Part shown: in pieces, positions 1 to 12,530 of the stretch
Layout: each line of letters opens with the position of its first letter
How positions within the stretch are numbered: position 1 is the first letter of the stretch
NCBI RefSeq assembly: GCF_034258515.1
Contig: NZ_CP139438.1
Location: 3,038,001 to 3,102,000, forward strand
Direction of reading: 5' to 3'
From: Pseudarthrobacter oxydans
GTDB lineage: Bacteria > Actinomycetota > Actinomycetes > Actinomycetales > Micrococcaceae
DNA length: 64,000 bases
Position numbers and translations under genes: made by a program
Notes under the pieces: generated by a model
Told to the model about the DNA's origin: nothing
Databases searched by the model: none
What the model saw: only the letters and a program-made list of their open reading frames with translations

Positions 1-867
1 CTCGGGCTTGGTGCCGTCGGCCTGGATCTGGCGAAGCATCTTGAGCACGGCCTCGTTGGCGCCGCCGTGGGCGGGGCCAAAGAGCGCGTTGATGCCTGCG
101 GACACCGAGGCGAAGAGGTTGGCGTTGGAGGAACCCACCAGCCGCACCGTGGAGGTGGAGCAGTTCTGCTCGTGGTCCGCGTGCAGGATGAGCAGCAGGT
201 CCAGTGCCTTCGCGACGACCGGGTCCACCTCGTACTGCTCCGCCGGAAGCCCGAAGCTGAGGCGCAGGAAGTTCTCCACGAGGTTGTGGGAGTTGTCCGG
301 GTACAGCATGGGCTGGCCGATGGACTTCTTGTGCGCGTACGCCGCGATGACCGGGAGCTTGGCCATGAGGCGAATTGTGGAAACTTCCACCTGTTCTGCA
401 TTGAACGGATCCAGCGAGTCCTGGTAGAACGTGGACAGCGCGGATACGGCGGAGGACAGGACGGGCATGGGGTGCGCGTCGCGGGGGAAGCCGCCGAAGA
501 AGCCCTTGAGCTCCTCATGCAGCAGGGTGTGCCGCCGGATCTTCTGGTCGAACGTGTCCAGTTCCGTGGGCGTGGGCAGGTTGCCGTAGATCAGCAGGTA
601 GGACACCTCGAGGAAGCTGGAGTGCTGCGCCAGCTGCTCGATGGGGTATCCGCGGTACCGCAGGATGCCCGCATCGCCATCGATGTAGGTGATGGCCGAG
701 GTGGTGGCTGCAGTGTTCATGAAGCCGGGGTCGAAGGTGACTGCGCCCGTCTGCTTCAGCAGCTTGGAAACGTCGTAGCCTTCGTTCCCTTCAATAACCT
801 GGATGCGCGGGAGCTTAAGCTCGCCTCCTGCGTGGAGCAGGGTCGCTGCGTTGTTGGTCTCAGTCAT
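1..867 (-). CDS. gltA: Citrate synthase (C-terminus cut by window start)
   Basis: Condenses oxaloacetate and acetyl-CoA to citrate, the entry step of the TCA cycle, in the cytosol. 289 residues are visible, starting MTETNNAATLLHAGG. The family active-site block HADHEQNCSTSTVR is near residue 232 and FGPAHGGANEAVLKM near residue 266. The remaining C-terminus, with the catalytic Asp, lies outside the window. The start ATG follows a GGGGACTCC purine stretch. It runs the same way as fdxA-dapC but is separated from dapC by a rho-independent terminator, so it probably has its own promoter in the 241-bp gap. Family assignment is secure. Confidence 0.96.
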   Translation of the reverse strand, partial: MTETNNAATLLHAGGELKLPRIQVIEGNEGYDVSKLLKQTGAVTFDPGFMNTAATTSAITYIDGDAGILRYRGYPIEQLAQHSSFLEVSYLLIYGNLPTPTELDTFDQKIRRHTLLHEELKGFFGGFPRDAHPMPVLSSAVSALSTFYQDSLDPFNAEQVEVSTIRLMAKLPVIAAYAHKKSIGQPMLYPDNSHNLVENFLRLSFGLPAEQYEVDPVVAKALDLLLILHADHEQNCSTSTVRLVGSSNANLFASVSAGINALFGPAHGGANEAVLKMLRQIQADGTKPE

Positions 868-1004
868 GGAGTCCCCTTCATGAGGCATCTGGGCCTCTGT
901 CGAAAGCTTGATCCAACATCAGGTGAGCCGCGCACTGACCCTGAGAACACAGGTTCCAACACCCGGGCTGCCTTCTTGTAGAGGGCCACCATTGATAGTC
1001 ACTT

Positions 1005-1029
1005 AAAAAGTACCCGCTCATTGGCGGGT
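1005..1029 (-). terminator. Rho-independent terminator after dapC
   Basis: On the minus strand a perfect 6-bp stem (ACCCGC/GCGGGT, loop CAATGA) is followed within two bases by TTTTT. It lies 80 nt past the dapC stop and before gltA, so it separates the two transcripts. Confidence 0.75.
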
Positions 1030-1108
1030 GTCACTAATCCAAGACGTGGCTGAAGCCCCTAAAATAGGGCTCTTGTGGCGCGAGTCACACCATTGTTACG
1101 GTGCTGTT

Positions 1109-2260
1109 TTATTGCCGCGCCGCTGCCAGCCGTGACACTGCGGCGTCGATGCGCTCGTCCGAACCCGTCAAAGCCACGCGGATGTAGCCGTTGCCCGCCT
1201 CGCCGTAGAAAACCCCGGGGCCCACAACGATGCCGCGCTCAGCCAGCCGTGCCACTGTGTCCCACGTGCTCTCCCCCGCCGTGGACCAAAGGTACAGTCC
1301 GGCGTCGGAATCCTTGATCTCCAGGCCGAAGTCCAGCAGGGCCGGGACCAGCCGATCGCGGCGTCCGCGGTACAGGTCCTTCTGCGCCTCAACGTGGGCG
1401 TCGTCTCCAAGCGCTACGCGCATGGCCTCCTGGACCGGGTACGGGACAATCATGCCTGCGTGCTTGCGGCTGTTGACCAGGTTGGGCATCAAGTCAGGAT
1501 CTCCGGCCACAAACGCTGCACGGTAGCCTGCCACGTTGGACTGCTTGCTGAGGGAGTAGACGGCCAGGAGCCCCCGATGGGAGCCTCCCGCGACCCGGGG
1601 GTCCAGGATACTGGGAACGGCCTGGCCGCCGCGCTGGACGTCCCAATCGCCCCACCCCAGCTCGGCGTAGCATTCGTCCGAGGCCACCACGGCGCCCAGC
1701 CCACGGGCCTGTTCCACGAGCGCTTTCAGGGATTCGACGCCCCGGACGCTGCCTGTGGGGTTGCCGGGCGAGTTGACCCAGATGAGCCGTACCCGCGCCC
1801 GCGTCTCGTCGTCGAGTTCATCCAGGTTGTCGGTCGCCACGGACGCGGCACCGGCGAGGGTGGCCCCGATGTCATAGGTAGGGTATGCCACCTTCGGGCG
1901 CACGACGACGTCTCCGGGCTTAAGCCCCAGCAGGAGCGGCAGCCATGCCACGAGTTCCTTGGAGCCCACGGTGGGCATGATGTTGCGGGGATCGAGGCCG
2001 GTAACGCCGCGGCGCCGCTCAAACCACCCGGCAATCGCTTCACGGAGGGCCGGGGTGCCGTGGACGGTGGGGTACCCCGGGGCGTCGGCGGCCGCCTTCA
2101 GCGCGTCCTGGATCAGGGCGGGGGTGGGGTCAACCGGGGTGCCAATGGACAGATTGACCGCCCCGTCCGGGTGCTGCCCGGCCTTGGCGACATACGGCGC
2201 CATGGCCTCCCACGGGTAGTCAGGCAGGTCCAGGCCAAAGGTTCTTGCTGCTGCGGTCAC
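1109..2260 (-). CDS. dapC: Succinyldiaminopimelate transaminase DapC (class I/II PLP aminotransferase)
   Basis: Likely converts N-succinyl-2-amino-6-ketopimelate to N-succinyl-LL-diaminopimelate for lysine and peptidoglycan synthesis. 383 residues. Visible fold-type I features are the NPTG loop at residues 167-170, SDECYAE near 194-200 and the PLP-binding SLSKQSN with Lys239. GTG start, preceded by CAGGGA. It begins 14 nt after the fdxA stop; the fdxA-dapC pair is typical of actinobacteria and supports DapC over other aminotransferases. Substrate is inferred from family and context. Confidence 0.88.
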   Translation of the reverse strand: MTAAARTFGLDLPDYPWEAMAPYVAKAGQHPDGAVNLSIGTPVDPTPALIQDALKAAADAPGYPTVHGTPALREAIAGWFERRRGVTGLDPRNIMPTVGSKELVAWLPLLLGLKPGDVVVRPKVAYPTYDIGATLAGAASVATDNLDELDDETRARVRLIWVNSPGNPTGSVRGVESLKALVEQARGLGAVVASDECYAELGWGDWDVQRGGQAVPSILDPRVAGGSHRGLLAVYSLSKQSNVAGYRAAFVAGDPDLMPNLVNSRKHAGMIVPYPVQEAMRVALGDDAHVEAQKDLYRGRRDRLVPALLDFGLEIKDSDAGLYLWSTAGESTWDTVARLAERGIVVGPGVFYGEAGNGYIRVALTGSDERIDAAVSRLAAARQ

Positions 2261-2274
2261 GGTCCCTGCCCGGG

Positions 2275-2601
2275 TCAGTGGTCTTGGTTCTGCGGCGGCA
2301 ACGCGGCGATCATCGGGTGGTCCTTGCCCGTGTTGCCGATTTTCGCGGCACCTCCGGGGGAACCGAGGTCATCAAAGAACTCGACGTTGGCCTTGTAGTA
2401 GTCCGCCCATTCCTCCGGGGTGTCATCCTCGTAGTAAATGGCTTCAACCGGGCAGACCGGTTCACAGGCGCCGCAGTCCACGCACTCGTCCGGATGGATG
2501 TACAGCGAACGCTCACCTTCGTAGATGCAGTCGACGGGGCATTCCTCAATACATGCCTTGTCCTTGACATCTACACACGGCTGCGCGATTACGTACGTCA
2601 C
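2275..2601 (-). CDS. fdxA: Seven-iron ferredoxin FdxA ([3Fe-4S][4Fe-4S])
   Basis: Small cytosolic electron carrier of 108 residues. Cysteines occur as CIEECPVDC (with an upstream Cys in IAQPCVD) and CVDCGACEPVCP, the usual ligand set of bacterial 7Fe ferredoxins, with the long acidic C-terminal tail of the actinobacterial type. I chose the GTG reading MTYVIAQPC because the family begins there and GGAGAGG lies 8 nt upstream; an in-frame ATG 48 nt earlier adds a non-conserved leader. First gene of the fdxA-dapC operon. A possible -10 (TAGGCT) lies at 2681-2686 on the minus strand. Confidence 0.95.
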   Translation of the reverse strand: MTYVIAQPCVDVKDKACIEECPVDCIYEGERSLYIHPDECVDCGACEPVCPVEAIYYEDDTPEEWADYYKANVEFFDDLGSPGGAAKIGNTGKDHPMIAALPPQNQDH

Positions 2602-2725
2602 GTCCCTGGCCTCTCCACGTTGGTTCCGGCAACCCGCCGGTTCTTGCATCCGGCAACTGCGGCCGGACTCTTGACATCTGAGCCTATTATCTCCCAGCCC
2701 GTTCCCGCGAACCTAGCCGGGCACC

Positions 2726-2731
2726 TAGTAT
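2726..2731 (+). promoter_or_regulatory. -10 box for leaderless transcript of 2738 gene
   Basis: TAGTAT lies 6 nt before the GTG at 2738 and no Shine-Dalgarno sequence is present, so transcription should start at the initiation codon. Confidence 0.6.
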
Positions 2732-2737
2732 GAACTG

Positions 2738-2977
2738 GTGAGTCAGCCTATACCCGCTCCTTCCGGGTTCCTCTCCACCGCAACGCCTGGAACGAGGGTT
2801 GTGGTGCGCTACCGCATCGAGGACGGGCTCACGGATGCCCTCGGGCACCTCCTGGCCTGCGACGCCGGTGCGTGCACCATCCGCACCCGGCAGGCCGACG
2901 TCGTCATTCCCTTGGACCTGGTGGTGGCTGCCAAAGAAGTGCCACCGGCGCCGGAGCGGCGCCGGCCGCGCGCCTAG
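2738..2977 (+). CDS. Small SH3-like domain protein (N-terminal domain of Rv0428c-type acetyltransferases)
   Basis: 79 residues. The stretch GTRVVVRYRIEDGLTDALGH followed by LLACD, then VVIPLDLVVAAKEVPP, resembles the beta-rich N-terminal domain found in front of the GNAT domain in Rv0428c/cg3035-like histone acetyltransferase relatives. Here the acetyltransferase part is absent: the frame ends in an Arg-rich tail (PERRRPRA) and a palindromic repeat follows. GTG start with a leaderless -10. Function unknown; a nucleic-acid or protein-binding role is only a guess. It may be a stable stand-alone family or a decayed remnant. Confidence 0.7.
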   Translation: MSQPIPAPSGFLSTATPGTRVVVRYRIEDGLTDALGHLLACDAGACTIRTRQADVVIPLDLVVAAKEVPPAPERRRPRA

Positions 2978-2988
2978 GGCGATCCACG

Positions 2989-3013
2989 CTGCGCAGGGAC
3001 AGTCCCTGCGCAG
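2989..3013. repeat. 25-nt palindrome between converging genes
   Basis: Two perfect 12-nt arms (CTGCGCAGGGAC and GTCCCTGCGCAG) around a single A. It overlaps the start of direct repeat copy A. It lies just after the 2738 gene stop and just beyond the DUF559 stop, so it may also act as a bidirectional terminator. Confidence 0.8.
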
Positions 3014-3045
3014 CGAACCCGGGCTTCACTGCGCAGGGCGGTACG
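2996..3045. repeat. Direct repeat copy A (3' side of the DUF559 gene)
   Basis: 50 nt that match copy B (3931-3980) at 42 positions, same orientation. Internally it has a perfect 10-bp inverted repeat, CCCTGCGCAG (3004-3013) and CTGCGCAGGG (3029-3038), with a 15-nt spacer. The last codons and stop of the DUF559 gene (YRPAQ then TGA) lie inside this copy. Confidence 0.85.
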
Positions 3046-3835
3046 TCGCGAGTGCCTGATGCACCATGTGCACGAACTTCTTGGGTTCGGCGAGCAGCAT
3101 CTCGAACGTCACGCGAAGGGTGGGAACGCCCCGGACAACGGTAACGTTCCAGCGCCGCCTGTCCTCCCGGTACGCTGCGCGGCTGCTGTGGTGGGTGTAG
3201 CCATCCGTCTCGATGCCCAGCAGTCCGTCCACAAGAAGATCCAGGTGGCCCATCCCCGGAATATTGACCTGAAGTTCGACTGTTAGCCCCGCTTCTTCCA
3301 GCAGGTACCGGGCCATCGTTTCAATGATGGAACCCGATTGCGGCCGGATTCTGCCCACAAGTGCAAGAACGCTCTTCTCCCGCGCCGCTGGAAAGCGTTC
3401 CCTCAACGCCGGAAGTTGAACCACCCCCTTCTTCACCGCAGATTCCGCGATGGTCAGCGCCTCAAGCGGCGGCAGGCAGCGGAGGGATTGGCACACAAAA
3501 TCCAAGGGCGTCAACGGAAGGCTGCTTCGATGGACCACGCAGCCCGGAACTGGCCTCCCGTGCCGGGCGGCCAGATGCGGTTTCTCCGGTTCCCTGACTA
3601 CCCACAGCCCCGCTGCCAAGGCGGCCGTGACACAGCCCGGAACCGCGTGATGGCGGCCGGCATGGATGAGCACGGGTTCTGCCTGCGGCAGCGCGTACAT
3701 TCCCCTGGCAACCCTCTGGACGGAGGCGTCAAGCACACCGGCTTCAATGAGGCGGCGGGGAACTCCGGCTTGCCTGAGTGAGCTTGCGCTGGCGACTCCC
3801 CCCAATGCCGCCAATGCATCAATGACAGTTCGCAT
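3026..3835 (-). CDS. AbiEi-like winged-helix plus DUF559 (PD-(D/E)XK, Vsr-like) protein
   Basis: 269 residues. Residues 1-50 (MRTVIDALAALGGVASASSL onward to RGMYALP) look like the winged-helix of AbiEi-family antitoxins. The C-terminal third has a Vsr/DUF559 endonuclease-like core: Glu in SIIETMARYLLEEAG, Asp in GHLDLLVDG and GIETDGYTHHS, then YREDRRRW. A DNA-nicking role is inferred from the fold only. No AbiEii-type toxin gene is adjacent, so it is not a normal toxin-antitoxin pair. ATG at 3835 has a poor ribosome site; no better in-frame start is visible. Direct repeats bracket the gene. Confidence 0.8.
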   Translation of the reverse strand: MRTVIDALAALGGVASASSLRQAGVPRRLIEAGVLDASVQRVARGMYALPQAEPVLIHAGRHHAVPGCVTAALAAGLWVVREPEKPHLAARHGRPVPGCVVHRSSLPLTPLDFVCQSLRCLPPLEALTIAESAVKKGVVQLPALRERFPAAREKSVLALVGRIRPQSGSIIETMARYLLEEAGLTVELQVNIPGMGHLDLLVDGLLGIETDGYTHHSSRAAYREDRRRWNVTVVRGVPTLRVTFEMLLAEPKKFVHMVHQALATYRPAQ

Positions 3836-3930
3836 GGGTGCATGCTGCCCGGTCCGAGGAGTCCGACCCAGGGCCCGTGCCGGCCATGTGGAAAACCTCC
3901 GGGTGCGGTGAAGGCGCCGGTCAGTGTACG

Positions 3931-3980
3931 GGGACTGCCCCTGCGCGCCGAACCCGGACATGACTGCGCAGGGCGGAACG
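3931..3980. repeat. Direct repeat copy B (5' side of the DUF559 gene)
   Basis: Same orientation and length as copy A, 8 mismatches, start-to-start distance 935 bp. Relative to the DUF559 gene it lies upstream of the start codon. A possible minus-strand promoter (TTCGGC, 18 nt, TACACT) spans this copy, so the repeat may drive the gene. Confidence 0.85.
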
Positions 3981-4015
3981 CAGAATGCCACCGGCACGGG
4001 GCCGGTGGCATTCTG
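3981..4015. terminator. Strong hairpin after typA
   Basis: Perfect 15-bp stem (3981-3995 with 4001-4015) and a 5-nt loop, 19 nt past the typA stop. There is no T-tract on the minus strand, so it would be an L-shaped actinobacterial-type terminator. It abuts direct repeat copy B. Confidence 0.7.
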
Positions 4016-4033
4016 TGGAAGAAACTAGAGTTG

Positions 4034-5962
4034 CTAGACCTTGGCGCGGGCGCGGTTGGCCTTGGCACGCTCGTTGGTGTCCAGGATGACCTTGCGGATG
4101 CGGATGGCTTCCGGGGTGACCTCGACACACTCGTCCTCGCGGGCGAATTCCAGGGACTCTTCGAGGGTAAGGTCGCGCGGCGGCGTCAGGTTCTCGAAGG
4201 TGTCGGAGGAGGCTGCACGCATGTTGGTGAGCTTCTTTTCCTTGGTGATGTTGACGTCCATGTCGTCGGCGCGGGAGTTCTCGCCCACGATCATGCCCTC
4301 GTAGACCTCGGACGTGGGCTTCACGAAGAAGGAGCCGCGTTCCTGCAGGTTGATCATGGCGAACGGAGTCACGACGCCGGCGCGGTCAGCGATCATCGAA
4401 CCATTGGTGCGGTACTCGATGGGGCCGGCCCACGGCTCGTAGCCCTCGGAAATGGAGGCTGCGATGCCGGCGCCGCGGGTGTCCGTGAGGAACTTGGTGC
4501 GGAAACCGATCAGGCCGCGGGCCGGAACGATGAACTCCATCCGGCACCAGCCGGTGCCGTGGTTGGCCATGTTGGTCATGCGGCCCTTGCGGGCTGCCAT
4601 GAGCTGCGTGACGGCGCCGAGGTACTCTTCCGGCACGTCGATGGTCATGTGCTCCATCGGCTCGTGGACCTTGCCGTCGATGGTCTTGGTGACCACCTGC
4701 GGCTTGCCTACGGTCAGCTCGAAGCCTTCGCGGCGCATCTGCTCAACAAGGATGGCAAGGGCGAGCTCGCCACGGCCCTGGACTTCCCAGGCGTCGGGAC
4801 GCTCGGTGGGCAGAACCTTAATGGAGACGTTACCGATCAGTTCCTTGTCCAGGCGGTCCTTCACCTGGCGGGCCGTGACCTTGGCGCCCTTGACCTTGCC
4901 GGCCAGCGGCGAGGTGTTGATACCGATGGTCATGGAGATGGCGGGATCGTCCACGGTGATCAGCGGCAGCGGCTGCGGGTTCTCGGCATCGGTCAGCGTC
5001 TCACCGATGGTGATTTCCTCGATGCCGGCGACAGCGACGATCTCGCCCGGTCCGGCGGATTCTGCCGGCACGCGGTCCAGCGCCTTGGTGGCCAGGAGCT
5101 CGGTGATCTTGACGTTCTTGAGTTCACCGTTGGCGCGGGCCCAGGCAACTGTCTGGCCCTTGCGCAGGGTGCCGTTGTAGATGCGCAGCAGCGCCAGGCG
5201 GCCCAGGAACGGGGACGCGTCCAGGTTGGTGACGTGCGCCTGCAGGACACCGTCGGGGTTGTAGGTGGGAGCCGGGATGTGCTCGATGATGGTCTTGAAC
5301 AGCGGCTCAAGGTCCTCGTTGTCCGGGGCTGCACCGTTGGCGGGCTGCTCCAGCGACGCGCGGCCAACCTTGGCGGCAGCGTAGACAACCGGAACTTCCA
5401 GGACCTTGTCCAGGTCCAGGTCCGGCACTTCATCGGCAAGGTCGGAGGCCAGGCCCAGGAGCAGGTCCATGGACTCGTGGACCACTTCGTCGATGCGGGC
5501 ATCGGGACGGTCGGTCTTGTTGACCAGCAGGATCACGGGAAGGTGTGCGGCGAGGGCCTTGCGCAGCACGAAGCGGGTCTGGGGCAGCGGGCCCTCAGAG
5601 GCATCAACGAGGAGGACGACGCCGTCAACCATGGACAGGCCGCGTTCCACCTCGCCGCCGAAGTCGGCGTGGCCCGGGGTGTCGATGACGTTGATGGTGA
5701 TGGTTTCGCCGTGGGAGGACGGACCGTTGTAGGCCACCGTGGTGTTCTTGGCCAGGATGGTGATGCCCTTTTCGCGCTCCAGGTCACCGGAGTCCATGAC
5801 GCGGTCTTCGAGGTGGTTGTGCTCGGCAAAGGAGTTGGTCTGCTTGAGCATGGCGTCGACCAGGGTGGTCTTGCCGTGGTCAACGTGGGCCACAATCGCG
5901 ACGTTGCGCAGGTCACTGCGCGATGCAGTGGCTACCGCAATGTTGGTGGTGGTTTCAGACAT
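4034..5962 (-). CDS. typA: Ribosome-associated GTPase TypA/BipA
   Basis: Translational GTPase that binds 70S ribosomes and helps late 50S assembly and stress growth. 642 residues, normal length. G1 AHVDHGKTT at residues 25-33, G2 near EKGITI, G3 DTPGHADF, G4 NKTD; then domain II, EF-G-like domains III and V and the BipA-specific C-terminus (NMRAASSDTFENLTPPRDLT region). Start ATG (MSETTTNIAV) with a weak CGAG-type ribosome site. Stands alone, ending in a 15-bp hairpin. No odd residues in the GTPase motifs. Confidence 0.98.
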   Translation of the reverse strand: MSETTTNIAVATASRSDLRNVAIVAHVDHGKTTLVDAMLKQTNSFAEHNHLEDRVMDSGDLEREKGITILAKNTTVAYNGPSSHGETITINVIDTPGHADFGGEVERGLSMVDGVVLLVDASEGPLPQTRFVLRKALAAHLPVILLVNKTDRPDARIDEVVHESMDLLLGLASDLADEVPDLDLDKVLEVPVVYAAAKVGRASLEQPANGAAPDNEDLEPLFKTIIEHIPAPTYNPDGVLQAHVTNLDASPFLGRLALLRIYNGTLRKGQTVAWARANGELKNVKITELLATKALDRVPAESAGPGEIVAVAGIEEITIGETLTDAENPQPLPLITVDDPAISMTIGINTSPLAGKVKGAKVTARQVKDRLDKELIGNVSIKVLPTERPDAWEVQGRGELALAILVEQMRREGFELTVGKPQVVTKTIDGKVHEPMEHMTIDVPEEYLGAVTQLMAARKGRMTNMANHGTGWCRMEFIVPARGLIGFRTKFLTDTRGAGIAASISEGYEPWAGPIEYRTNGSMIADRAGVVTPFAMINLQERGSFFVKPTSEVYEGMIVGENSRADDMDVNITKEKKLTNMRAASSDTFENLTPPRDLTLEESLEFAREDECVEVTPEAIRIRKVILDTNERAKANRARAKV

Positions 5963-6230
5963 GCGTTATTGCTCGATTCAGTGGGTCAGCTGTAATGTAT
6001 CGCGACATTTCCAACTGGAACGCACGACGGATCAGGCCCTTAGCACAGGGCACCTTCCCCAAGTCTAGCCGGTGTGCCTTTTATTGGCCTAAATTTTTCC
6101 GCCGACCGCGGATCCGGTGGCCGGCCAACCGCCGCGCCACGATGCTTATTTGTGGGCAAAATCACTGGCGGATCCGGCGGCGATGCCACATGATTGCTCT
6201 GACATACAGCGCAAGCCCGAAAGACACCAG

Positions 6231-7073
6231 ATGCGAAATGCCTTGGCCGCTGCGGCCCGGTACCGCCGCCGTACCGTCGCGGCCGCCGTTGCGGTTATCG
6301 CCGTGGCAGGCGCCCTTGTCCTCTCCGGCTGCGCCCTGCCCGCCACGTCCGGCGAGGGTCCGGCCCTGGTGGACGCGGCGCCTGCCGTTTCGCGTGTCCT
6401 CAACCCCGGCAACGGCCGGCTTGAGGCGGTGGTCCCGGAGATCGGCAGGACCGTCCTCCTGATCGGCGATTCACAATCGGAGCCGGCCGACGGCTGGCCG
6501 CGGCTGGGCCTGGCCGCGGCGGGATACCGGGTGTACTTCTGCGGCAGGGGCGGCACCGGTTTTGTCACGTCGAAGGGTGCCACGGGCAACTACATCGATG
6601 CGCTCCTGCGCGGCGACTGGCTGCTCCCGGCCGGCACGCCCGCGCTGATCGTGGTGCAGGGCGGCGGCAACGATGCCACCAGCGGAGCCAGTGACAGCGA
6701 CATCGTTGCCAACGCTGAGCGGCTGATCGGGGAGCTCCAAAGGCGGTACCCGGGCACGCGCCTGGCGATGATCGGGACTCTGGCCCGCGGCGAAGGCCAT
6801 GGCGGAGGCCGGCGAAGCGAGGTGGACGCCCTGCTGGGATCCGTGGCGGCGGACCACGGCCTGCCCTTTGTAGCCGTGGGTGACTGGCTGACCAAATACG
6901 GCCTGGTCCAGGATCTCGCGGACTCCGTGCACATGAACCCGGGGGGCCGCCGGGCGCTGGGTACGCTCCTTGAGCGCCGCCTCCGCGAACTGGGCCTGGA
7001 GCGAACGCCGACGGCGGACGTTGCCCCGCTCCTGGATGCCCGCACCGGAGGCGCAGGCGCGGGCCAGGACTGA
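6231..7073 (+). CDS. SGNH/GDSL-type hydrolase lipoprotein
   Basis: Predicted lipid-anchored esterase, 280 residues. A signal peptide with RYRRR, a hydrophobic core and lipobox ALVLSGC opens the protein. Block I GDSQS, block II Gly in CGRGGTG, block III GGGND and block V DSVHMNPGG give a complete Ser/Gly/Asn/His set. I start at 6231 because this directly gives the signal peptide; upstream in-frame ATGs add a hydrophilic leader. Substrate unknown; O-acetyl groups on cell-wall sugars are a possibility. The preceding gap 5963-6230 holds both this gene's and typA's promoter regions; I see no other feature there. Confidence 0.85.
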   Translation: MRNALAAAARYRRRTVAAAVAVIAVAGALVLSGCALPATSGEGPALVDAAPAVSRVLNPGNGRLEAVVPEIGRTVLLIGDSQSEPADGWPRLGLAAAGYRVYFCGRGGTGFVTSKGATGNYIDALLRGDWLLPAGTPALIVVQGGGNDATSGASDSDIVANAERLIGELQRRYPGTRLAMIGTLARGEGHGGGRRSEVDALLGSVAADHGLPFVAVGDWLTKYGLVQDLADSVHMNPGGRRALGTLLERRLRELGLERTPTADVAPLLDARTGGAGAGQD

Positions 7074-7081
7074 AAACAGCA

Positions 7082-7120
7082 ACGGCCGGCGCCGGAGTCC
7101 AATACCCCGGCGCCGGCCGT
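7082..7120. terminator. Bidirectional terminator between SGNH gene and peptide ABC operon
   Basis: Perfect 14-bp GC stem (7082-7095 with 7107-7120) with an 11-nt loop, between two converging genes. No T-tract on either side. Confidence 0.7.
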
Positions 7121-7140
7121 CGCGCGTTGGTGCCGCGTCG

Positions 7141-8862
7141 CTAGGCCACTTCCGGCGGCAACATCAGCTTGGCACCGGGAATGGCATTGAGCAGGGCCTT
7201 GGTGTACTCCTGCTGCGGCGATTCGAAGACGTCGTCCGTGGATCCGGTCTCCACCAGCCGCCCCTTTTCCATGACACAGACGTGGTCCGCGATCTGGCGC
7301 ACCACCGCAAGGTCGTGCGTGATGAAGAGGTACGTCAGTCCGAGTTTGGATTGCAGGTCCGCCAGCAGGTTCAGCACCTGCGCCTGGACCAGGACGTCGA
7401 GGGCGGACACCGCTTCGTCACAGATGATCACTTCCGGATCCAGCGCCAGTGCACGGGCGATGGCCACGCGCTGCCGCTGGCCGCCGGACAGCTCGTTGGG
7501 GTAGCGCTGCATGGCCGACTGCGGAAGGGCCACCTGGTCCAGGAGTTCCCGGACCTTTTTCTCACGGCTGGCTTTGTCGCCGATCTTGTGGACGCGCAAC
7601 GGTTCTTCAATAGTGCGGAAGATGTTGTACATGGGGTCCAGGGAACCGTATGGATCCTGGAAAATGGGCTGGACCCGGCGGCGGAACTTGAAGAGTTCCG
7701 CCGGCTTCAGACCTGACGTCTCCACGCCATCGAACAGAATCCTGCCCTCGGTCGGCTTCTCCAGCTGGAGCACCATCTTGGCCACTGTGGACTTGCCGGA
7801 ACCCGATTCCCCCACGATCGCCGTCGTGGTTCCGCGTTTGACGTCGAAGCTCACACCGTCAACGGCGGCGAAGTCCGAAGCTCTCCCGAAACCCTGCCGG
7901 AGCTTGTAGACCTTGCGCAGGTCCTGGATCTGCAGGACATTGTCTGCCGTTGCCGCCTCTGCGGCCGGGGCCAGGAGATCGGCCGTTTCCACGCCCTGTT
8001 CCTTGGCAGCCTGGATCCGCCGGCTGGCGAGGGAAGGTGCGGATTCGACAAGCCTCTTGGTGTAAGGGTGCCGGGGGTTTCGCAGCAGTTCCAGGGAGGG
8101 CCCTGCTTCCACGACCTGTCCCTGGTACATCACCACGACCTTGTCCGCCCGTTCCGCAGCCAGGCCCAGGTCGTGCGTGATCAGCAGTACCGACGTGCCC
8201 AGTTCCGTGGTCATGGTGTCCAGATGGTCGAGGATCTGCCGCTGCACGGTCACATCCAGCGCCGAAGTCGGCTCGTCGGCAATGAGCAGCCGCGGCTGGC
8301 AGGAGAGGCCGATGGCAATGAGGGCGCGCTGCCGCATACCGCCGGAGAACTCATGCGGATACTGGTTGGCACGCCTGTGCGCATCCGGGAGGCCGGCTTC
8401 GGCAAGTACCTTGGCAATGTCCTCCGGCCCGCTCGGCCTGCCGTTGGCGCGCAGGGTCTCCTTGACCTGGTAGCCGATTTTCCAGACGGGGTTGAGGTTG
8501 GACATGGGATCCTGCGGCACCATGCCGATGGTGTTGCCGCGCAGTTCGATCATCCGCTGCTCGGTGGCGTGGGCAATGTCCTCACCGTCCAGCAGGATCT
8601 GGCCACCGGACACACGGCCGTTATTGGGCAGCAGCCCGATGGCCGCCAGCGCCGTCGTGGACTTGCCGGAACCCGACTCCCCCACGATGGCGACGGTCTC
8701 ACCGGGCATGATGCTCAGGTGCGCATTCCGGACTGCCTGGATGTCCCCGCCGCCGGTCTTGAACGTAATGGCCAGGTCGCGGATTTCCAGCAGCGGCTGG
8801 ACGCCGGTGGCGCCGGCCTCGTCGATGCGGATTTGTGGAGTGGTCATCTCGTTATCTCTCAT
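7141..8862 (-). CDS. Oligopeptide ABC transporter, fused double ATPase (DppD-DppF type)
   Basis: Cytoplasmic ATPase of a peptide/nickel-type importer, 573 residues with two complete nucleotide-binding halves. Each half has Walker A GESGSGKST (near residues 61-69 and 353), a signature motif (FSGGMRQRA and LSGGQRQRV) and a Walker B (LLIADEPTSALD and VIICDEAVSALD). One chain thus supplies both ATPases normally encoded by dppD and dppF. The start ATG overlaps the permease stop in ATGA, indicating coupling; an ATG 15 nt further in is an alternative. Last gene of the operon. Confidence 0.95.
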   Translation of the reverse strand: MRDNEMTTPQIRIDEAGATGVQPLLEIRDLAITFKTGGGDIQAVRNAHLSIMPGETVAIVGESGSGKSTTALAAIGLLPNNGRVSGGQILLDGEDIAHATEQRMIELRGNTIGMVPQDPMSNLNPVWKIGYQVKETLRANGRPSGPEDIAKVLAEAGLPDAHRRANQYPHEFSGGMRQRALIAIGLSCQPRLLIADEPTSALDVTVQRQILDHLDTMTTELGTSVLLITHDLGLAAERADKVVVMYQGQVVEAGPSLELLRNPRHPYTKRLVESAPSLASRRIQAAKEQGVETADLLAPAAEAATADNVLQIQDLRKVYKLRQGFGRASDFAAVDGVSFDVKRGTTTAIVGESGSGKSTVAKMVLQLEKPTEGRILFDGVETSGLKPAELFKFRRRVQPIFQDPYGSLDPMYNIFRTIEEPLRVHKIGDKASREKKVRELLDQVALPQSAMQRYPNELSGGQRQRVAIARALALDPEVIICDEAVSALDVLVQAQVLNLLADLQSKLGLTYLFITHDLAVVRQIADHVCVMEKGRLVETGSTDDVFESPQQEYTKALLNAIPGAKLMLPPEVA

Positions 8863-9803
8863 CGCTGACGGCTCTTGGGATCGAGGGCGTCACGTACAGC
8901 ATCGCCCAGCATGATGAAGCTCAGGACCGTGATGGACAGGGCCGCGGCCGGATACAGCATGATTTCCGGCCTGGTTCGAATGGACGCCTGGGCGCCGGCG
9001 ATGTCATTGCCCCAGGACATGATGCTTTGCGGCAGGCCGATACCCAGGAAGGACAGCGTGGCTTCTGCCACGATGAACACGCCGAGTTCCAGCGTGGCAA
9101 GGACGATGATCGGCGCGAGGGCGTTCGGCAGTACGTGCCGCACAAGGGCCCCGAATTTGGAGACGCCCAGGGCCCGCGCCGCAGTGACGAAGTCAGCGTT
9201 GCGTACCTCAATGACGGCACCGCGCGTGATGCGTGCCATCTGCGGCCACGCCAGCAGCGAGATGACAAAGACCACCGTCCAGACGCCCCTGTTCTCGCGG
9301 AACATGGGAAGCTGGGTGATGACCAGCGCGCCAAGGATCAGCGGCAGGGCGAAGAAGATGTCACCCAGGCGTGCGAGCACGGCGTCAATCCAGCCGCCGT
9401 AGTAACCGGCCAGGGCACCGATGGTGACACCGATGACCAGGACGCACAGCACGGAGAGAAGGCCCACTGACAGCGAGGCCTGGGTCCCGTGGATGACGCG
9501 GGAGTACACGTCGCAGCCCTGGAAAGTGAAACCAAAGGGGTGGCCGGCCATGGGTCCGCCCTCGGAATTGGCCAGTTCGCAGCCCTCGTTGGGAGCCACG
9601 GAGGTAAAGAGTCCGGGGAACAGCGCTATCACGGTCAGCATCACGATCAGCAGCGCGGAAATGATGAACAGCGGACGACGGCGGAGCTTGCGCCAGGCGT
9701 CGGACCACAGGCTGAGCGGGGCCTGGTCAGTCTTTACGGCATCCGTTGCCAGCAACGGGGTTTCGTCGATGGGCGCCACAAAGTGGCTGTTATTACTGGT
9801 CAT
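8859..9803 (-). CDS. Peptide ABC transporter permease (DppC type)
   Basis: Inner-membrane permease, 314 residues from the chosen ATG (MTSNNSHFVAPIDE). N-terminal OppC-type segment with TM1 (LFIISALLIVMLTVIALFPG), then the BPD_transp_1 domain with EAA-loop features (AARALGVSKF then HVLPNALAPI). GAGGATC lies 8 nt before this ATG; a longer in-frame start 42 nt upstream lacks this. The start overlaps the end of the dppB-like gene by 11 nt. Forms the channel with the upstream permease. Confidence 0.93.
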   Translation of the reverse strand: MTSNNSHFVAPIDETPLLATDAVKTDQAPLSLWSDAWRKLRRRPLFIISALLIVMLTVIALFPGLFTSVAPNEGCELANSEGGPMAGHPFGFTFQGCDVYSRVIHGTQASLSVGLLSVLCVLVIGVTIGALAGYYGGWIDAVLARLGDIFFALPLILGALVITQLPMFRENRGVWTVVFVISLLAWPQMARITRGAVIEVRNADFVTAARALGVSKFGALVRHVLPNALAPIIVLATLELGVFIVAEATLSFLGIGLPQSIMSWGNDIAGAQASIRTRPEIMLYPAAALSITVLSFIMLGDAVRDALDPKSRQR

Positions 9804-10722
9804 AGCGGATCCTCGGGTCAAGCCAGGCGTAAAGGAGATCGACAAGCAGGTTGGCCACTACGAAGACCAGCACCAGCACGCTGACGATGGAAACGATGGT
9901 GGGACCCTCGCTGCGGAGGACCGCCTGGTAGAGCTTGTTGCCGACGCCGGGCACGTTGAAGATACCCTCCGTCACGATCGCGCCACCCATGAGGCCGCCG
10001 AGGTTGGCACCGAGGTAGGTCACCACGGGAATCAGGGAGTTGCGCAGGATATGGGCCAGGACCACGCGGGGCCGCGACAGGCCCTTGGCAGTTGCAGTGC
10101 GCACGTAGTCGGCATTCATGTTTTCGCTGACCGAGGCGCGGGTGAGGCGGAGGACATAAGCGAAGGACACCAGGCCCAGGACAATGGCGGGCAGCAGCAG
10201 GCTCCCCCAGTCGGCGTTGGCGCCGACGGTGGGTTTCGCCCATCCGAGCTTGACGCCGAAGACGAGCTGGAAGACGAAGCCCAGGACGAATGTGGGCACG
10301 GCGATGACCACGAGCGACGCCACCAGGACGGTGGAGTCGAACCAGCCGCCGCGGCGCAGGCCTGCGAAAACACCGAATGCCACGCCGAAGATCGCCTGGA
10401 TGGCCAAAGCCTCAACGGCCAGCATCGCGGTGACCGGGAAGACGCGGGCCAGGCTTGCCGCAATGGGCTGGCCGGTGAAGTCGTTGCCAAGGTTGAACGT
10501 AAAGAGGTTCTTGAGGAACAGGCCGTACTGGACCCAGAACGGCTCATCAAGGTGGTACTGGCTGCGCAGCGTGTCGATGACGGCCTGCGGAGGCTGACGG
10601 TCCCCGAAAAGCGCAGCGATAGGGTCACCCGGGAGGGCGAACACCATGTAATAGACCAAAAGGGTGGTGCCGATGAAGACGGGGATCACTTGAAGGAGTC
10701 GGCGCAGAATAAAGCGGACCAC
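9793..10722 (-). CDS. Peptide ABC transporter permease (DppB type)
   Basis: Inner-membrane permease, 309 residues, usual DppB length. Begins MVRFILRRLLQVIPVFIGTT, the classic OppB/DppB N-terminus with TM1; contains the ALPGDP motif, and RTATAKGLSRPRVVLAHILR in the cytoplasmic loop that contacts the ATPase. GTG start with GGAAGG about 12 nt upstream. Follows the binding-protein gene after a hairpin and precedes the second permease with overlap. Confidence 0.94.
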   Translation of the reverse strand: MVRFILRRLLQVIPVFIGTTLLVYYMVFALPGDPIAALFGDRQPPQAVIDTLRSQYHLDEPFWVQYGLFLKNLFTFNLGNDFTGQPIAASLARVFPVTAMLAVEALAIQAIFGVAFGVFAGLRRGGWFDSTVLVASLVVIAVPTFVLGFVFQLVFGVKLGWAKPTVGANADWGSLLLPAIVLGLVSFAYVLRLTRASVSENMNADYVRTATAKGLSRPRVVLAHILRNSLIPVVTYLGANLGGLMGGAIVTEGIFNVPGVGNKLYQAVLRSEGPTIVSIVSVLVLVFVVANLLVDLLYAWLDPRIRYDQ

Positions 10723-10788
10723 CGGATCACCAGCCTTCCGGTTGGGAAGAAAACAGGTTCATTGGTGCCTTCCTGCCGTGCAAGCCAA

Positions 10789-10816
10789 TGGGGGCCCGGC
10801 GGTAGCCGGACCCCCA
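10789..10816 (-). terminator. Intercistronic hairpin after the binding-protein gene
   Basis: Twelve-base arms (10789-10800 and 10805-10816) with one mismatch and a GGTA loop, between the solute-binding gene and dppB. Probably lets more binding protein than permease be made. Confidence 0.6.
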
Positions 10817-10844
10817 TGTGCTTACCGACAAGTTAGTTCTGGGA

Positions 10845-12530
10845 CTACTTTGCGGTGATGCCGTAGTAAAGGATGCTGCCGTTCCAGCCGGTTTCAGCCT
10901 TGGCGACGTTGTTGCTCCACACGATCGGCCGTGCCTGGTCCCAGAGCGGCAGGCCGGGAAGGTCCTCGAAGAGGATCTCCTGTGCCGCGTTGAACTTGGC
11001 GTTGGCCTCATCCGTGGTCTTGGCTGCCAGGCCCTCCTTGAGCAGCTTGTCGAACTCGGGGTTCGAGTACTTCTCGTAGTTGGAGGATGCGCCCGTGGCC
11101 CAGACCGGCCCCAGGAAGTTGTAGAGCGACGGGTAGTCGCCCTGCCAGCCGGCGCGGCTCAGGCCCGGGAGGGACTGGGACTTGCGCAGGTTCAGGACCT
11201 CAGCAAACTTGGCGAAGGGCTGGATTTCAGCCTGGATTCCCAGGTTGTTCTTGAAGCCGTTAGCTACGGCGTCGATCCATTCCTTGTTGCCGCCATCGGT
11301 GTTGGATGCAATCTGCAGCGGCTTGGAATTGTCGTACGGCTGGATCTTGTCAGCCTGTGCCCAGAGGTCCTTGGCCTTTGCGGCGTCGAACTTCAGGACT
11401 TCGCTGCCCTTGAGGCCTTCCTTGAATCCGTCAATGACCGGCGGGGCGAATGCCTTGGCCGGGGTGCGGGTGCCGTTGAAGACAACCTTGGCGATCTCCT
11501 CGCGGTTGATGGCGTAGGAGAGTGCCTGGCGGCGGAGCTTGCCGGCTTCACCCTGGAAGTTCGGGTTGTAACCCGGGATGTTCAGGGTGGAGTTGGTGGC
11601 AACGGGCTTGGTGGCATTGCGGTCCGGGAAGTCCGAAACGTACGTCTTAAGCGCATTCGACGGGAGGACGTCGGTTACGTCCAGGTTGTCCGACTGCAGG
11701 TCGGTGTACGCGGGGCCCGGATCCGTGTAGAACTTGAACGTCACGCCACCGTTCTTCGACTCGCGGGGACCGCTGTAGTCCGGGTTCTTCACGAGGGAGA
11801 TGGACTGGTCGTGAACCCAGGCGCCTTCTTTCTCCATCTTGTACGGGCCGTTGCCTACCGGGTTCTCGCCGAATGCCTTCGGGTCTGCCAGCGCAGCGGA
11901 GGGAAGCGGGAAGAAGGCGGAGTAGCCGAGTCGCAAGGACCAGTCAGCTTCGGGCTGGGCCAGCTTGACGGTAAGGGTGGAGTCGTCCTTGGCTTCGAGG
12001 CCGGACATGGTTTCCGCGGTGGGTGCGGGAGTGGTGGTGGTCTTGCCGTCCGCAGACTTCTCTTTGGTAACCGCCGAGACTTCCTCATAGCCGGCGATGG
12101 ATTCAAAGAAGAACCCGTTGTTCTGCAGGTTCTTCGAGTTCGCCGCGAAGTTCCAGGAATCCACGAACGTCTTGGCCGTGATCTCTTCACCGTTCGTGAA
12201 CTTCTGGCCCTGCTTGATCTTGATGGTCCAGTTCTGGGCATCAGGCGACTCGATGGATTCTGCCAGCGCGTTCACCGGCTTGCCATCAGCGTCGTAGGTC
12301 CGCAGGCCTTCGAACAGAAGCTCGACGACGCGGCCGCCGTAGACTTCGTTCGTGTTCGCCGGCAGCAACGGATTTTGTGGTTCGTTGCTGTAGGCAGTGA
12401 TGACCTTGTTCGGGTCGCCGGCGGCGTTGCTGGCTCCGTCAGTGCTGCCGCCTCCAGCGCCGCAGCCGGTCAGGGCAAGCGCGGCTATTGCCACTATGCC
12501 CAGTGCTTTGGAAGTGCGCGTAAAACGCAT
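10845..12530 (-). CDS. Peptide ABC transporter substrate-binding lipoprotein (family 5)
   Basis: Extracytoplasmic peptide-binding lipoprotein, 561 residues. Lipid signal with TSKALGIVAIAALALTGC; the SBP_bac_5 region begins near VITAYSNEPQNPLLP and includes NPVGNGPYKME and YNPNFQGEAGKLRRQALSYA. AGGAGGCGGA precedes the ATG. It lies directly upstream of the permease and ATPase genes, so it is their primary receptor. Peptide specificity cannot be read from sequence. Confidence 0.94.
   Translation of the reverse strand: MRFTRTSKALGIVAIAALALTGCGAGGGSTDGASNAAGDPNKVITAYSNEPQNPLLPANTNEVYGGRVVELLFEGLRTYDADGKPVNALAESIESPDAQNWTIKIKQGQKFTNGEEITAKTFVDSWNFAANSKNLQNNGFFFESIAGYEEVSAVTKEKSADGKTTTTPAPTAETMSGLEAKDDSTLTVKLAQPEADWSLRLGYSAFFPLPSAALADPKAFGENPVGNGPYKMEKEGAWVHDQSISLVKNPDYSGPRESKNGGVTFKFYTDPGPAYTDLQSDNLDVTDVLPSNALKTYVSDFPDRNATKPVATNSTLNIPGYNPNFQGEAGKLRRQALSYAINREEIAKVVFNGTRTPAKAFAPPVIDGFKEGLKGSEVLKFDAAKAKDLWAQADKIQPYDNSKPLQIASNTDGGNKEWIDAVANGFKNNLGIQAEIQPFAKFAEVLNLRKSQSLPGLSRAGWQGDYPSLYNFLGPVWATGASSNYEKYSNPEFDKLLKEGLAAKTTDEANAKFNAAQEILFEDLPGLPLWDQARPIVWSNNVAKAETGWNGSILYYGITAK

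Follow-up and report, generated by a model that had tools for sequence, protein, structure and literature searches.

A predicted nuclease gene of Pseudarthrobacter oxydans between palindromic repeats, and gene-specific repeat brackets in its actinobacterial family

In REP/RAYT systems, as described in PMC8266576 and PMC3733652, a gene is flanked by cognate palindromes, the palindromes are dispersed in carrier genomes, and palindrome and protein co-evolve; TnpA-REP acts on folded single strands (PMC8266576). Inverted repeats are also bound by AbiEi of S. agalactiae and by Rv2827c, in both cases in their own promoters (PMC7319586). Two further descriptions touch on the present locus: REase_MTES_1575 (PF18741), a Vsr-like REase that takes its name from a large multidomain protein (PMC3710099), and the predicted REP elements that RepRanger lists genome-wide for an Arthrobacter (PMC12306157). 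We analysed a stretch of 64,000 nucleotides from Pseudarthrobacter oxydans (contig NZ_CP139438.1, hereafter the window), in which a predicted nuclease gene lies between two palindromic repeats (Table 1), together with the relatives of this gene in other genomes.

Table 1. Features at and around the nuclease gene, in window coordinates
Feature	Position	Strand	Remarks
Ferredoxin gene FdxA	2275..2649	-	Fer4 match; other conserved neighbour
79-aa ORF, SH3_Rv0428c domain	2738..2977	+	Pfam
Perfect dyad, 14-bp arms, 1-nt centre	2987..3015 (2987-3000 / 3002-3015)		overlaps copy A
Repeat copy A, downstream bracket	2996..3045	.	overlaps the gene's stop and last codons
Second dyad in copy A, 17-nt arms, 88% complementary	3004..3038 (3004-3020 / 3022-3038)
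AbiEi-type winged-helix plus Vsr/EDxHD-type (MTES_1575) nuclease gene, 269 aa	3026..3835	-	stop 3026-3028
DnaA-box-like TTTTCCACA	3887..3895	-	between copy B and start codon
Repeat copy B, upstream bracket	3931..3980	.	~96-145 bp 5' of ATG
Separate 15-bp perfect inverted repeat	3981..4015	.	directly after typA, outside bracket
typA	4034..5962	-	BipA_C match; conserved neighbour marking the slot

The initial annotation had described two 50-nt repeats in the same orientation on either side of the nuclease gene, the first of them holding its last codons and stop, and both statements held: the copies are identical at 42 of 50 positions (84%) and lie 935 bp apart, start to start. The palindromes it reported in copy A are present, but the sizes given (10-bp and 25-nt) were too short; the arms measure 14 bp and 17 nt, in two overlapping and mutually exclusive dyads. 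Relatives of the gene form two groups, clade 1 (L005-L009 plus L028, which is decayed) and clade 2 (L010-L027, ~47-52% identical). Because 16 of the 18 clade-2 matches leave out the first part of the long frame and set in at residues 44-55, the true start is likely the ATG at 3835 (residue 55) rather than the GTG at 3997, and copy B therefore lies upstream of the gene at the distance given in Table 1. A sigma-70 consensus scan of 2600-4100 gave no promoter match.

Pfam searches of the window protein gave an AbiEi-like match at the N terminus and an MTES_1575 match at the C terminus, both under the gathering score (AbiEi_4: 17 bits vs gathering 25). Across the family, at E <= 0.01, MTES_1575 matched 12 of 12 members and AbiEi_4 matched 11 of 12; no transposase domain was matched by Pfam in the window protein or in these 12 members. 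The AlphaFold model has a mean pLDDT of 70, with residues 53-107 below 50. Foldseek ranked the AbiEi antitoxin 6y8q first (prob 0.91, E 0.0075) and the I-Bth0305I catalytic domain 3r3p second and third (prob 1.00 and 0.99, E 0.044 and 0.06), the latter over the C-terminal domain; 3r3p is the highest-probability match and is weak, like all others (none at E <= 0.001). No solved structure was matched in a sequence-based profile search, and a phage-family scan gave a single weak, unrelated match (E 0.044). Acid and histidine positions are strongly conserved among 59 aligned members (E172 in 58, D199 in 59, E209 in 58, D211 in 55, H216 in 58 and D225 in 59). These may be the residues of EDxHD, which we take to be the name applied to the nuclease type of the C-terminal domain. 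The product is likely a DNA-cutting protein with a toxin-antitoxin-like DNA-binding head. Between clades 1 and 2, identity is 41% in the winged helix and 58% in the nuclease part, and pN/pS in clade 1 (10 pairs of 5 genes) is 0.18-0.25, indicating purifying selection. The window's genome holds two further paralogs, both distant.

Profile searches (E <= 1e-20) found family members in 68 of 149 Micrococcaceae genomes and in 29 of 246 genomes of the class, and the best matches of two profile searches, with no random draw, made up a case set of 59 loci. We scored the similarity of the 400 bp before each gene to the 400 bp that span and follow its stop, with the start of the profile match as the start of case genes and the outermost ATG/GTG as the start of control genes, many of whose flanks extend into neighbouring coding sequence. 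Two loci with short flanks (L073 and L108) were omitted. The remaining 57 cover the window's gene (L050) and its paralog (L124) as well as some close pairs. Compared with 461 controls from five genomes, which do not cover all case genomes, 45 of the 57 scored above the 95th percentile and 39 above the 99th (Mann-Whitney p ~2e-22). Controls exceeded their own thresholds in 16/461 and 5/461 cases, and an earlier run with 265 controls returned the identical 45 and 39. The 12 family members that lack a bracket above the control 95th percentile include the window genome's own paralog L003 (L124). The window's gene scored 60 against a 99th percentile of 32.4, and a single control scored higher (65). 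This control is itself an AbiEi-family gene: AbiEi_4 matches its protein above the gathering score, and a palindromic element of its own lies on both sides, which suggests that bracketing may reach AbiEi proteins outside the searched family. It lies at L142:4249-5415 (genome G282), with a bracket element of ~65 bp and a C-terminal part that is nuclease-like by eye.

Elements were shared between loci (score >= 40) more often as protein identity rose: in 0/864 pairs below 35% identity, 7/409 at 35-40%, 22/216 at 40-50%, 10/36 at 50-60%, 6/13 at 60-80% and 2/2 above 80%. Sharing also follows shared ancestry, and this co-divergence is therefore no proof of recognition. Significant self-complementarity against mononucleotide shuffles was found in 22 of 39 shared elements, and the remainder are repeats in which dyads are short or went undetected. 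Elsewhere in five other genomes, of which ~9-12% each was sampled, the bracket elements had almost no extra copies. Bracketing by a gene-specific repeat is common in this actinobacterial family, and the repeats differ between lineages. Repeats are far from missing around all homologues, and the earlier proposal that nuclease and repeats belong together is borne out by the frequency of brackets and by the growth of sharing with protein similarity.

The gene occupies a stable position. We found typA within 3 kb in all 24 relatives located in genome contigs, and the ferredoxin gene in 21 of these loci, with contig ends cutting two of the remaining three; the 24 were found through protein matches, a route by which slots without the gene could not appear. 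This single neighbourhood in all 24 relatives indicates that the gene has been vertically kept. The nuclease locus shows no sign of mobility. The view that gene and repeats form a mobile unit finds no support in view of this synteny, the purifying selection in clade 1 and the lack of dispersal of the palindrome, at the exact-word level, in its own genome; on the single neighbourhood we rejected present-day mobility of the unit as a whole. Judged as an insertion sequence or MITE, the unit has no transposase match and only one genomic neighbourhood. A decayed transposon of the insertion-sequence kind, with the repeats as its former ends, could be suspected because two further controls scored 40-41 and one of them, among the three top-scoring of 461, is, judged by eye, an ORF for an integrase-type transposase, a kind of gene around which repeat brackets are to be expected. 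Such a relic is very unlikely given the constant position next to typA, where the repeats differ between clades, the missing transposase domain and the presence of only two distant paralogs in the genome.

Several neighbouring features were observed in passing. Genes around the nuclease gene in the window matched TypA/BipA, SH3_Rv0428c, ferredoxin, aminotransferase, GDSL and ABC transporter ATPase models. The ABC transporter ATPase also matches AAA_21, a generic model with AbiEii in its title; no AbiEii (DUF1814) nucleotidyltransferase was matched among the window's neighbouring genes. The 79-aa ORF has SH3_Rv0428c as its sole domain, is convergent with the nuclease gene and ends just before copy A. 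Five clade-2 loci (L010, L012, L015, L020 and L025) carry an extra ORF of ~120-130 aa between typA and the nuclease gene, membrane-protein-like by eye, which the window does not have. In L028 (2960-3732, Arthrobacter sp. 9AX), the nuclease gene is decayed by a large internal deletion and both repeat copies are retained.

All six clade-1 loci (L005-L009 and L028) carry TGCGCAGGG-type repeats on both flanks. Folded as single-stranded DNA, copy A of the window beats 199 of 200 shuffles (z -2.84) and copy B beats 185 of 200. In 12 aligned copies from clade 1, 84.5% of the cells of the inner dyad are paired, compared with 27-47% when the dyad is slid by 1-3 columns; compensatory changes in the same copies were no commoner than in shuffles, and the dyad is therefore without covariation support. 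Evidence that copies A and B evolve in concert within clade 1 was borderline, with 31 of 720 permutations scoring as high or higher. The inverted repeat directly after typA is probably its terminator, and a terminator scan of 2600-4100 gave a single terminator-like match (2941-2960), no more than expected by chance. No Rfam RNA reached its gathering threshold in 1-12000, and a search for plasmid carriage of copy A matched 14 records, every one at E 0.6 or worse. The strong hairpin of copy A between convergent genes is what one would expect if the repeats were generic terminators or mRNA-stability hairpins between genes. We consider this reading most unlikely, since bracket strength of this order is rare elsewhere (5/461 controls above the 99th percentile vs 39/57 family members), copy B follows a separate hairpin after typA, and the only terminator-like match is at chance level.

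In the window's genome, the exact word CTGCGCAGGG occurs at 32 sites vs 24 for the reversed control and is not dispersed; the exact paired clade-1 motif occurs at the nuclease gene only. The genome also holds another family of elements, similar in shape to the 79-bp elements of clade 2 described below. Two 88-bp elements of the form AAATGCGTNACTT...AAGTNACGCATTT are present, at L004:1357-1444 and at G000:C1 3324197-3324284 (L079:1698-1785), the former adjoining a paralog of the nuclease gene. Both fold strongly as DNA (z -3.8 and -3.5). Partial AAATGCGTNACTT elements lie at 3568978 and 1246479, and the reversed word has 0 matches. Dispersal of the AACYGGSCCRGTT motif of paralog L003 was considered and rejected, with 65 matches per strand (<= 1 mismatch) vs 52 for the reversed word.

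Upstream of family genes, we found a motif resembling a DnaA box. TCCACA occurs within 150 bp 5' of the start in 47/59 family members vs 12/606 control flanks, and the longer TT[AG]TCCACA in 15/59 vs 1/606; control flanks are often coding, and intergenic motifs may be understated in this comparison. As a second control, T.TCCACA was counted in the flanks of the same genes, with 29/59 upstream and 0/59 downstream. A CACATA box is present in 17 of 18 clade-2 loci, 16 of these at 56-59 bp upstream of the start used. High-affinity DnaA boxes are TTGTCCACA in M. tuberculosis and S. coelicolor and TTATCCACA in E. coli (PMC4285127, Table 1). The motif suggests that expression of the nuclease gene may be tied to replication initiation.

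Clade-2 loci carry GGACATGYCC-type dyads, that is, another palindrome in the same slot as that of clade 1, and protein and palindrome have diverged in parallel between the clades. Full dyads were found on both sides of the gene in 16 of 18 clade-2 loci (400 bp up, 300 bp down) and inside the gene in none of the 18; in L016 and L027 the upstream full dyads are absent. Counting palindromic sites on both strands, GGACATGYCC has 130-249 sites in each of 6 clade-2 genomes vs 6-21 for the reversed word. Many copies are arranged as a 79-bp element of three dyads (GGRCAT/ATGYCC at fixed spacing) with variable spacers. In regions picked for closely paired sites, 19 of 21 elements are exactly 79 long, and 18 of the 21 entered the alignment. 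As a check on this choice of regions, a hand count was made in G004: 13 of 17 neighbouring plus/minus GGACATGCCC pairs within 100 bp, among the matches listed, are exactly 69 apart. A search of 149 genomes for the full 79-bp pattern found 18 copies in G092, a clade-2 gene carrier, one of them being its bracket; the other matches were single ones in G025, G053 and G145, all without the central dyad. The exact element has no match in a second clade-2 gene carrier, G112, whose flanks show the variant motif GGACATGCTCA. Among genomes searched for both, clade-2 dispersal is found only in gene carriers. The analogy to REP sequences that had been drawn for this locus thus applies to the sister clade, where the elements are dispersed as the REP palindromes of E. 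coli are, but not to the window's own genome.

Most dispersed copies lie between genes. In ten G092 stretches with 13 elements, 10 lie clear of any ORF call, and the other 3 run into ORF calls that seem to have been extended too far at the start. At the site upstream of purD, full dyads are present in 11 of 30 loci (30 fetched of 61 matched), several as tandem arrays, and absent in 19. G092 has two exact elements at this site and a third with a one-base change in the first dyad, and a relative whose purD is 97% identical holds just one element, of 78 bp. Nine of the dyad-free loci were read by eye and have an unchanged neighbouring gene start and a short gap; one of the 19, L187, is not comparable. 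This pattern of presence and absence looks insertion-like. Locus L200 (genome G402) has, upstream of purD, a palindromic element of a variant type (core CCGGACATATCACTCATATGTCCGG), which may represent another gene-specific family. One clade-2 element was folded, and its hairpin was no better than shuffles (z -0.67); together with the fixed spacing, this weak fold points to double-stranded dyads, rather than folded single strands, as the likely form of the clade-2 sites.

What the protein does with these repeats can be read in two main ways. In the first, the palindromes are operators only. The AbiEi-like protein would bind them to repress its own gene, its nuclease domain would have some other task, such as defence, and the copies dispersed in the genome would make up a regulon. 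The promoter repeats bound by AbiEi of S. agalactiae and by Rv2827c (PMC7319586) are a precedent, and the clade-2 elements, one of which folds poorly, resemble spaced double-stranded dyads. Autorepression by itself, however, would need no downstream copy, although the genes are usually flanked on both sides; and tandem amplification with presence and absence at an orthologous purD site resembles element turnover, not a regulon. We therefore regard operators alone as an unlikely, if serious, account.

We lean towards the second reading, in which the protein recognises its flanking palindromes and the locus is a REPtron-like module built on an unrelated enzyme. The gene product would be a nuclease that binds DNA sequence-specifically and has the elements flanking its own gene as cognate sites. 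Its AbiEi-like N-terminal winged helix, the fastest-diverging part between the clades, would read the palindrome, a role supported by the promoter binding described for AbiEi in PMC7319586, and cutting or nicking at or close to the palindrome would fall to the C-terminal Vsr/EDxHD-type domain. In the five other sampled genomes, as in that of the window, little beyond the bracketing copies was seen, and the sites there would probably serve autoregulation; the protein perhaps bridges both ends of its own gene. In clade 2 the sites have multiplied in tandem arrays and are dispersed between genes, which repair copying provoked by the nuclease would explain most simply. Since a copy downstream and turnover among the dispersed copies go further than plain autoregulation, nicking-driven copying is our preferred extension; nicking that spreads palindromes is plausible, if unproven. 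Cut sites on both flanks of the gene would be dangerous to it if cutting were unregulated. More tentatively, and with more doubt than conviction, we propose a second, independent REP-like system, in which actinobacterial AbiEi-Vsr-type nucleases each recognise a palindromic element of their own and keep it on both flanks, protein and element re-evolve quickly as a pair, the nuclease in some lineages drives the element to spread and multiply between genes, and expression is tied to replication through DnaA.

If the protein does act on the palindromes, dispersed bacterial palindromes would not be the business of RAYTs alone, and the family would offer a candidate enzyme type for REP-like repeats reported to lack a dedicated transposase, such as the CGTC family (PMC3733652). 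The many diverged protein-palindrome pairs among the 59 genes examined would make the DNA specificity of AbiEi-type winged helices directly decodable, and the DnaA-box-like motif would link the module to the replication cycle.

The locus belongs to a widespread arrangement of a nuclease with its own repeat, which was not found in the literature searched; genome-wide REP predictions for one Arthrobacter exist (PMC12306157). No link of AbiEi, DUF559 or MTES_1575 genes with flanking or dispersed palindromes was found in the literature searched, which was largely openly available articles. The REP elements listed by RepRanger are palindromic like those described here, but the text of PMC12306157 names no endonuclease or DUF559 gene, and no link to a gene was found in it. 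REase_MTES_1575 matches the C-terminal domain in all members searched, but the present protein is small, has two domains and comes with bracketing palindromes, a word absent from the text of PMC3710099.

The likeness to I-Bth0305I and Vsr, the latter a nickase, lies in the Foldseek match over the C-terminal domain and in the near-invariant acid and His residues. Unlike homing endonucleases, the gene has no intron or interrupted target in view; whole elements lie on both sides, with no split site, and the slot is stable. With the AbiE type IV toxin-antitoxin systems the family shares a probable AbiEi-like winged helix at the N terminus and inverted repeats upstream. It differs from them in that the window has no AbiEii (DUF1814) neighbour, the nuclease replaces the antitoxin's C-terminal domain, and the repeat lies also downstream and, in one clade, is dispersed. 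The comparison with the REPtron of REP/RAYT systems has two sides. The enzyme here is an AbiEi-Vsr-type nuclease and theirs an HUH/Y1 transposase, whose model PF01797 was absent in 33 of 36 genomes, including the window's, and present in G004, G119 and G150 (1/7 and 2/29 genomes by set; positive in 5/14 control genomes). High-copy dispersal is seen here in one clade only, with low copy for one paralog family, and the clade-2 element that we folded is a poor hairpin, whereas RAYT substrates fold. Like the REPtron, however, most family genes are flanked on both sides by repeats that are putatively their own cognate sites.
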